Assembly: GCF_018861045.1 (NCBI RefSeq) | Contig: NZ_JAHKQJ010000005.1 | Coordinates: 310,001 to 374,000, forward strand | Direction of reading: 5' to 3' | DNA: 64,000 nt | DNA from: Octadecabacter sp. B2R22 | Lineage (GTDB): Bacteria > Pseudomonadota > Alphaproteobacteria > Rhodobacterales > Rhodobacteraceae | Part shown: piece after piece, positions 36,113 through 36,825 of the stretch | Position numbering within the stretch: position 1 is the stretch's first letter | Layout of the letters: each line of letters starts with the position of its first letter | Position numbers and translations under genes: made by a program | Notes under the pieces: model-generated | Database searches by the model: none | What the model was told of the DNA's origin: nothing | Seen by the model: only the letters and a program-made list of their open reading frames with translations

Positions 36113-36532
36113 CTAGATCCCCGGCCCCTTCCGCAAGGCCTTAACCTCGCCGCGTTTTTTCTTCGCGTCCACCCGTTTGCGTTTCTGGTTCTGGGACACG
36201 CGCGTTCTAACCCGTCGTTTCGGAGCCACTAAAGCCGCGCGGATGAGTTCTGCCAATCGCTCGCGGGCTAGTTCGCGGTTCCTTGCTTGGGATCGCGTAT
36301 CTTGCACAAAGATCACCACCGCGCCGTCACTTGTCCATTTCCTCCCTGCCGCGCGGCGTAGGCGGGTTTTGACAGGCCCTGTCAGCGCAGGGGATCGTTC
36401 AGCCTCGAACCGTAGCTCGACAGCCGTGCTCACCTTGTTAACGTTCTGGCCACCCGGACCAGAGGCGCGAACGAAATGTTCCGTCAGCTCCCAATCGGCA
36501 ATCTCAATACTATCGTTGATCCATAATCCCAT
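36113..36532 (-). CDS. arfB: Alternative ribosome-rescue factor ArfB (YaeJ)
   Basis: 139 residues with the peptide-release GGQ motif in VRASGPGGQNVNKVSTAVEL (about residues 22-41) and a strongly basic tail (RTRVSQNQKRKRVDAKKKR) that enters the mRNA tunnel. ArfB releases nascent chains from ribosomes stalled at the ends of broken mRNAs. The last 37 codons exist a second time at 34788-34912 as a degraded copy. Downstream is trmL, convergent. Confidence 0.94.
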   Translation of the reverse strand: MGLWINDSIEIADWELTEHFVRASGPGGQNVNKVSTAVELRFEAERSPALTGPVKTRLRRAAGRKWTSDGAVVIFVQDTRSQARNRELARERLAELIRAALVAPKRRVRTRVSQNQKRKRVDAKKKRGEVKALRKGPGI

Positions 36533-36586: not shown

Positions 36587-36621
36587 AAAAAGGGCTATTC
36601 CCAGCGATAGGAATAGCCCTT
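36587..36621. terminator. Strong intrinsic terminator
   Basis: AAGGGCTATTCC and GGAATAGCCCTT form a 12-bp perfect stem around an eight-base loop. On the minus strand it continues as a T-run of about six, so it ends transcripts of the tiny ORF and of yhhQ. The symmetry allows it to act on arfB-strand traffic too. Confidence 0.85.
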
Positions 36622-36629
36622 CGAAAGTT

Positions 36630-36758
36630 CAGGAGGTGATGCCGGTTAGAGGGTCTCACCTATCGAATTACGTGCCCAAGGGCTGCCTTAGACGCGCGCC
36701 TCCATAGTTGTCCCGACATGTACCACTTCTATCTTTCTCGACACTGGATCACCTCCTG
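36630..36758 (-). repeat. 11-bp inverted repeat spanning a tiny ORF
   Basis: CAGGAGGTGAT at the 5' end of the minus-strand transcript (36758-36748) is perfectly complementary to ATCACCTCCTG (36640-36630). One arm is the Shine-Dalgarno of the tiny ORF at 36688-36744, so pairing would hide it. The terminator follows 9 bases after the right arm. Confidence 0.75.
36688..36744 (-). CDS. Candidate 18-residue peptide with an exceptional Shine-Dalgarno
   Basis: A GTG at 36744 begins an 18-codon frame (MSRKIEVVHVGTTMEARV if GTG is read as Met), ending in TAA at 36690-36688. The ribosome site AGGAGGTGATCC (36757-36746) is complementary to all 12 bases of the usual 16S rRNA tail, far more than normal, and lies one base before the GTG. 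An 11-bp inverted repeat can sequester it and a strong terminator follows. I do not recognise the peptide. It could be a small regulatory peptide, a leader, or a ribosome-binding decoy RNA. Confidence 0.45.
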   Translation of the reverse strand: MSRKIEVVHVGTTMEARV

Positions 36759-36825
36759 TTCATTGTTTCGCCTAAGGACAGGTTGGCACAACTTCTGGGG
36801 ATTACCAAAGATTTTTTCACAACAT

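Follow-up and report, generated by a model that had tools for sequence, protein, structure and literature searches.

The minus strand of the 64,000-nt stretch of Octadecabacter sp. B2R22 DNA analysed here (the window) carries a compact, terminator-ended unit whose 5' part is complementary to the 3' tail of 16S rRNA. Judging from sequence and predicted structure, it is best explained as an alphaproteobacterial RNA in its Rhodobacteraceae form, CC2171 (Rfam family RF01867) being one branch of that RNA. By the codon and pairing statistics given below, what is conserved is the RNA rather than the peptide encoded within it. The favoured reading, to which about an even chance is given, is that of a stand-alone, structured and bistable RNA that would face the ribosome and engage 30S subunits through the 16S tail.

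Layout of the locus and its match to the 16S rRNA tail

The features of the unit are listed in Table 1. The segment CAGGAGGTGATCC starts at 36758 (-) and includes the 12-mer AGGAGGTGATCC (36757-36746), and the terminator, with the hairpin arms AAGGGCTATTCC and GGAATAGCCCTT, closes with five T in a row at 36587 (-). A sequence-only reading of this DNA had described the arrangement of 12-mer, GTG, 18-codon frame, ATCACCTCCTG and terminator, and all coordinates were confirmed from the sequence. Its further claim of a compact, self-contained unit also holds. A simple promoter and terminator scan called no promoter and no terminator at this locus, so that the terminator call rests on sequence and fold.

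Only two CAGGAGGTGAT sites occur in the 64 kb (0.01 expected), namely the 11-mer and its inverted copy, and two such sites were found in 0 of 100 shuffles. The 12-mer occurs a single time in the whole genome sequence of the organism. No 16S copy of it was found in the genome sequence searched, from which the 16S end of the organism is thus absent. The predicted fold of the window RNA reaches -74.2 kcal/mol compared with -53 ± 4.3 kcal/mol for shuffles (z -4.9), and an 11-bp lock on the Shine-Dalgarno site is present in the minimum-energy structure.

Table 1 Features of the RNA unit and the following gene (window coordinates)
Feature	Position	Strand	Basis or remark
Whole RNA unit, about 184 nt	36589..36772	-	5' end approximate, inferred from model match; RF01867 alignment 36592-36768, model positions 1-159 of 159; match to own model R1 with 134.4 bits, E 7e-32, the window copy itself being one of the 52 sequences behind R1
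Block complementary to the 16S 3' tail, AACAGGAGGTGATCC (in most relatives GAAAGGAGGTGATCC)	36746..36760	-	
Start codon GTG	36742..36744	-	start-codon spacing kept in relatives
18-codon frame VSRKIEVVHVGTTMEARV, TAA stop	36688..36744	-	sequence; frame length kept in family
P1a 5' strand GAAAG (codons 3-4)	36733..36737	-	partner 36627-36623
P2 hairpin, CAGC loop, stop codon inside the 5' arm	36674..36693	-	fold, family counts, covarying stem
ATCACCTCCTG, strand locking the Shine-Dalgarno site 36758-36748	36630..36640	-	fold, site counts, family lock
P1a 3' strand CTTTC, immediately 5' of the terminator	36623..36627	-	pair counts in alignment A2
Intrinsic terminator hairpin and T run	36587..36621	-	sequence and fold
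arfB	36113-36532	-	ATG at 36532, about 55 nt past the terminator

The part of the block that forms its core does not vary. The RF01867 matches gave 79 loci, of which five lack the core (L201, L202, L203, L209, L211) and two are duplicates. AGGAGGTG is unvarying in all 72 remaining core-bearing loci, for which GGAGGTG was required and the preceding A was not. Counted from the first G of GGAGG, the distance to a start codon (ATG, GTG or TTG) is exactly 12 nt in 70 of these 72 and 11 nt in the other two (L190, L200). Since the pattern searches fix core and start codon, invariance was judged on the model-derived loci only.

Among relatives, the commonest block is GAAAGGAGGTGATCC(AG). The 16S tails of two family members (L334 and L335) are GGCTGGATCACCTCCTTTCT and read GCGGCTGGATCACCTCCTTTCTAAGG at the 16S end, so the block can pair with the entire single-stranded tail. 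In 246 of 270 loci, the 16S tail is matched gaplessly over 15-18 nt, mostly 15-17 nt; many of the loci had been found by a pattern fixing 13 of the matching bases, and the 272 rows of this analysis comprise the 270 loci and two spurious second sites (L224, L254). The window copy has one mismatch to the tail complement (AACAGG for GAAAGG). Its duplex with the 16S tail has a computed energy of -25.9 kcal/mol; across the 142 mechanical window ORFs of at least 100 aa, the best duplex reaches -20.7 kcal/mol and the median is -12.1 kcal/mol. The earlier suggestion that the site is under selection for something besides ordinary translation is supported.

The seven available 16S or 16S-like tails are too alike for testing compensatory change with the rRNA. 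Changes in the outer block (positions 7-11) are wobble-compatible in 32 cases and broken in 18, transitions being commoner anyway, and the GATCC extension is broken in the family members L025, L030, L190, L197, L198 and L200. In an Azospirillum and two other genomes (L281, L189, L078), the same long Shine-Dalgarno block precedes ORFs of about 56-59 residues that have signal-peptide-like starts.

Family membership and spread

When 5 kb were searched against Rfam with E values up to 1 allowed, RF01867 (CC2171, a Caulobacter sRNA) was the sole match; its E value is 6.5e-5 for this length and 5.2e-6 for 401 bases. The name CC2171 probably goes back to Landt et al. 2008, where it was reportedly introduced. 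The unit, which the sequence-only reading had not recognised, is thereby placed as a relative of a catalogued RNA. The covariance match runs end to end (1-159) and includes the 5' Shine-Dalgarno block, the start codon, the outer helix and the terminator, with several outer pairs marked non-standard or unaligned. The 5' block AAGGAGGUGAUCCAGUGUC agrees but for one base, and both RNAs pair their start-proximal codons with the strand preceding the terminator. They differ in that the window has P2 and the lock, whereas Caulobacter-type sequences have P2 in 0/56 and the lock in 6/54 (3.4 expected). Because its score of 35.3 bits does not reach the gathering score of 75, the window unit is not filed as a certified RF01867 member.

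At E 1e-3, the RF01867 model finds matches in 40 of 61 relatives and 66 of 289 class genomes, mostly under the cut-off: the gathering score is exceeded in just 1/61 and 10/289, respectively, and at least five of the listed matches are not this RNA. Model R1, which was built from 52 family sequences, finds the RNA in 183 of 199 Rhodobacteraceae genomes at E 1e-3 or better, at one place per genome in 180 of the 183. A second R1 match in the organism's own genome (C3, E 2.8e-4) was rejected, as it consists mainly of a terminator after a gene and is without the block.

The exact pattern AAAGGAGGTGATCNNDTG is found in 64/289 class genomes and 84/396 phylum genomes, and all of these 84 are inside the same family or class. 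The same pattern read backwards, used as a control, occurs once in the 396 phylum genomes. A pattern scan of named genomes gave at least 119 stretches; the 80 that are listed belong to alphaproteobacteria of several orders or to MAGs labelled only Proteobacteria. Genome G048 is the only one with the exact pattern twice, and its two copies (L003 and L168) are one Caulobacter-like (MSHCH...) and one of the sphingomonad type (MSHGS...). The lineage groups used throughout (Rhodo, VSHC, EQP etc.) were defined by peptide regular expressions and not by taxonomy.

According to excerpts of PMC5596092, MH_s33 of Mesorhizobium huakuii appears under RF01867, its sequenced length being 215 nt, and RNA-seq products were obtained for 34 of 35 predicted sRNAs, among which MH_s33 is counted because only MH_s6 lacked them. 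Within the excerpted open-licence literature, RF01867 also appears in a table of families with revised structures. No function for RF01867/CC2171 was found in the excerpts of open-licence PMC papers that name the accession.

Helices, Shine-Dalgarno lock and reading frame

Codons 2-9 pair with the pre-terminator strand (P1) at a mean of -16.2 kcal/mol in 241 sequences. Controls give about -10.9 kcal/mol with partners swapped between lineages, -11.4 to -11.9 kcal/mol with shuffled codons and -10.4 kcal/mol with an internal segment. The set goes back to 271 rows, the spurious L254 row among them; 11 are without a terminator, and the other 260 were reduced by three that were spurious or belonged to different genes and by 16 repeats. 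The pairing uses different letters in different lineages and is clear in six of seven groups, Bradyrhizobium being the weak one (native -10.0 vs shuffled -9.5). Taken singly, only 90 of the 241 sequences pair better than 95% of the shuffles made from them.

In the family alignment A2, P1a (GAAAG/CTTTC) is paired in 91.8% of cells and four of its five pairs have changes on both sides, while the GGAG of codons 6-7 is paired with the CUCC strand, also part of P1, in 100% of cells and is nearly invariant. For P1 and P2 together, 92.8% of A2 cells are paired (slid versions at most 66.9%) and 83 cells are changed on both sides, compared with 29.6 ± 7.8 in shuffles; leaving out two rows whose sequences recur in the model gives 92.8% and 80. 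These counts lean towards the two helices because the aligning model already contained them. Alignment A1 was made without the model and gives 87.0% paired cells (slid versions at most 66.4%) and 48 both-side changes vs 11.7. It started from 59 family sequences with a terminator, of which 56 rows were under the length limit and 52 were aligned; L014, L028, L029 and the spurious L224 row were left out by hand.

P2 is a hairpin of the form G-CA(A/G)N-C, which shuffles produce at about 1%. It is present in 48/59 Rhodobacteraceae, 17/17 Mesorhizobium-type, 18/21 'EQP' and 10/44 other sequences, and in none of the 56 Caulobacter-type ('VSHC'), 46 sphingomonad and 17 Bradyrhizobium sequences (0/119). 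Its loop region reads EQP within the frame in some lineages; in Rhodobacteraceae the hairpin lies across or after the stop codon, and in L106 it is out of frame. Two further segments, GUCGG(R)ACA in the frame (36717-36713) and CUAACCG before the lock strand (36645-36641) (-), are strongly conserved in the family, and each of the five pairs of a GUCGG/CCGAY-type pairing is found in 56-59 of 60 family sequences.

The sequence-only reading had proposed that the ribosome site can be locked by the 3' part of its own transcript. The best fold of the window RNA agrees with this, and so does the family: an anti-Shine-Dalgarno 7-mer, from a list chosen after the sequences were seen, occurs in 52/57 Rhodobacteraceae RNAs (2.4 expected). 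It also occurs in 15/15 Bradyrhizobium sequences (1.0 expected), there inside the frame, and at or near chance in five other groups. The unpaired probability of the core is 0.01 in Rhodobacteraceae (57 sequences), 0.11 in Bradyrhizobium and 0.23-0.38 elsewhere, with 0.31 for shuffled sequences; beyond the first two groups, locking of the core hardly or not at all exceeds that of the shuffled controls.

Unguided, RNAalifold on A2 chooses the lock GGAGGU/ACCUCC over P1 and masks the start codon in a hairpin, UCCAGUGUC/..UUGGA. Two lock positions vary, and 30 of the 33 changes there preserve pairing through wobble. The downstream CACCTCC had been read as an anti-Shine-Dalgarno strand, and it can lock the site; this is not its only predicted pairing, as in relatives it also pairs with the GGAG of codons 6-7. 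A single CUCC strand thus serves the lock and P1, and the two folds are mutually exclusive. The window RNA no longer has the GGAG of codons 6-7, and its lock has lengthened to 11 bp; the close kin L019 is alike.

Loci of the Bradyrhizobium type (L120-L129, L251, L261) have a 14-residue frame, VSxxKRCHLAGIAR, that is almost frozen in nucleotides. It contains TCACCTC and CTGGGATC, resembling the 16S tail, so that the lock is placed unlike that of Rhodobacteraceae. The sphingomonad locus L163 has a perfect 16S-tail mimic, GGATCACCTCC, downstream of the frame; in the sphingomonad group, any anti-Shine-Dalgarno 7-mer is found in just 2/39.

A free-standing, terminator-ended unit with variable neighbours (by crude ORF calls, among the loci listed) could also be a conventional trans-acting sRNA, whose GGAGG-rich block or P2 loop would pair with other RNAs, e.g. 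CCUCC-rich sRNAs or mRNAs, the 16S match being a side effect. The conservation of a CAGC-type loop in several lineages fits this explanation, but three groups do without P2, and such pairing requires neither the conserved match length nor a start codon at initiation spacing. It is regarded as unlikely.

The frame itself is well kept. Of 60 further family sequences, 58 have a frame of 18 codons, one has 20 and one has 12; once the two sequences repeating model rows are removed, the count is 56 of 58. Start and stop are kept in frame in this set, as expected for a small protein, and TAG, TGA and TAA stops are all in use. The 60 sequences were chosen by the model alone, with L348 and L387 repeating A1 sequences; frame counts on the Rhodo group and A1 are biased because both require the 18-codon frame. 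Retention of the stop by chance has a probability of about 2e-4 under independent columns (relatedness ignored), and the absence of earlier stops is weakly unexpected (0.04). The conservation check in relatives proposed in the sequence-only reading found both frame and lock kept.

These counts, together with a start codon in 72/72 core-bearing loci, would suit a small mRNA or dual-function RNA whose active product is an 18-residue peptide made from a very strong initiation site, and according to excerpts of Schrader et al. 2014 (PMC4117421), two earlier Caulobacter ncRNAs are translated. However, an excess of variation at third codon positions is absent. The mean entropies at positions 1, 2 and 3 are 0.93, 0.95 and 0.90 in 57 distinct family ORFs, 0.78, 0.77 and 0.67 in the 58 distinct 18-codon ORFs of the further family set, and 0.81, 0.84 and 0.61 in 39 sphingomonad ORFs. 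As third positions are no freer than the others, the conservation points to the RNA and not to the peptide. Of the single changes, a slightly larger share is synonymous in the true frame than in the two others, both in the further family set (0.38 vs 0.30 and 0.27) and in the first (0.36 vs 0.31 and 0.25), but in sphingomonads the true frame is the lowest (0.24 vs 0.41 and 0.42), and codon-level purifying selection was not found in these sets. In addition, peptides are unlike between lineages in sequence and length (14 to about 36 residues), P2 shifts relative to the frame, and the conserved frame segments track base pairing. The regulatory peptide offered as one option by the sequence-only reading is accordingly not supported, and a peptide as the active product is considered quite improbable.

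The gene upstream of the unit belongs to Pfam Vut_1 and is taken to be yhhQ; the downstream gene has a Pfam RF-1 domain and is presumably arfB, a ribosome rescue gene. yhhQ is near the RNA in 57/59 Rhodobacteraceae-group loci and in no other group (the 60th 'Rhodo' neighbour row being the spurious L224). arfB lies downstream on the same strand in 52 of these 59 loci and occurs in 0 of 59, 50, 17 and 17 rows of four other groups (within loci of 3-8 kb), and its proximity may reflect shared ancestry or a functional link. It is found upstream on the other strand in five loci of other groups (L086, L094-L096 and L257), including a Hyphomonadaceae MAG. No downstream gene common to the class, as expected for an attenuator, was found, and an attenuator of a conserved gene was rejected because the neighbours vary between lineages (both by crude ORF calls, among the loci listed). 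A cis leader or attenuator controlling the downstream gene, here arfB, is therefore very improbable in spite of the closely following arfB of the Rhodobacteraceae group, as downstream genes vary and, among the loci listed, frequently run in the opposite direction (Mesorhizobium and Bradyrhizobium are examples), and the terminator is retained in the predicted fold of the window RNA.

In three loci (L225, L255 and L327, namely Bosea, a Methylobacterium MAG and one more), the RNA immediately precedes members of a single gene cluster, and the member in L255 has RNB, CSD2 and S1 domains (RNase R-like). In the Caulobacter-type locus L090, a partial tmRNA gene lies about 1.2 kb from the RNA, probably by chance. 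A link to tmRNA was rejected, since ARAGORN gave no tmRNA over 60 loci (the partial one in L090 was missed); the same run gave tRNA-Gly in five Bradyrhizobium loci.

Proposed mechanism and relation to known systems

As a stand-alone bistable RNA, the unit would offer in its 5' part a complement of the 16S 3' tail at initiation spacing from a start codon. In one predicted fold, the pre-terminator strand would pair with codons 3-4 (in relatives also 6-7), leaving the 16S-binding block free. In the other, that strand would pair with the Shine-Dalgarno core, the start codon would be placed in a small hairpin and the block withheld. The free form would most likely bind 30S subunits via the 16S tail, whereby the RNA could track free 30S subunits or keep hold of them. 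The other option of the sequence-only reading, a ribosome-binding small RNA, matches the favoured one. What the sequences show is the complementarity, the copy number, the pairings, the missing conservation of the peptide and the possibility of a lock; expression in this organism, binding to 30S subunits, in vivo switching and an influence on ribosomes are inferred.

The short frame would be translated rarely or just as part of the gating, the peptide being immaterial. Given that start codon, 18-codon frame and stop are kept, the unit is probably built for initiation and perhaps for a brief stretch of translation, even though its peptide is unconserved. The same observation counts against a reading as RNA only, since translation itself may matter.

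A more specific and rather doubtful proposal is that the RNA caps the loose 16S 3' tail, including its last UUUC, on free 30S subunits and could shield the 16S 3' end from RNase R, while the tail mimic of Rhodobacteraceae and Bradyrhizobium would mask the RNA until 30S subunits compete. According to excerpts of PMC10901742, RNase R attacking 30S subunits degrades the anti-Shine-Dalgarno sequence first. If capping were true, the anti-Shine-Dalgarno sequence would be hidden, favouring leaderless or Shine-Dalgarno-less mRNAs, and the 16S 3' end could be protected from this nuclease.

Among known systems, the extended Shine-Dalgarno sites of Staphylococcus aureus are alike in that the helix with the anti-Shine-Dalgarno sequence reaches beyond the core and that some precede short ORFs; they are described for many mRNAs (excerpts of PMC13009471). 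The present unit, in contrast, has about one site per genome, mostly of 15-17 nt, within a structured RNA whose peptide is not conserved. Another likeness is rnTrpL of Sinorhizobium, a leader-peptide RNA with trans function, which is also a small RNA with a very short ORF; it is a leaderless mRNA and a tryptophan attenuator (excerpts of PMC10117765), whereas the present unit has a leader and no class-wide fixed downstream gene.

A wider analogy is provided by 6S RNA. It is a widely conserved structured RNA that acts on RNA polymerase by imitating its substrate. The comparison is an analogy only, as the partner here would be the ribosome instead of RNA polymerase, and the sequences were compared only through the Rfam scan.

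Measured against the open-licence literature, several aspects seem to be new: the 16S-tail complement as the invariant core, the reach of the RNA beyond the Rfam model, the missing peptide conservation and the lineage-specific lock. Caution is advisable wherever a small protein has been annotated at this locus.

An RNA present in nearly all family genomes (183/199) and recognisable in several orders thus comes without a published job in the open-licence papers found. With the 16S-tail complement as its best-conserved portion, it connects a small RNA to the ribosome in a concrete and testable way. In Caulobacter, only 24.6% of coding sequences have a Shine-Dalgarno site, according to excerpts of PMC4117421. 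With many alphaproteobacterial genes lacking such sites, an RNA that engages the anti-Shine-Dalgarno sequence could shift which mRNAs are read.
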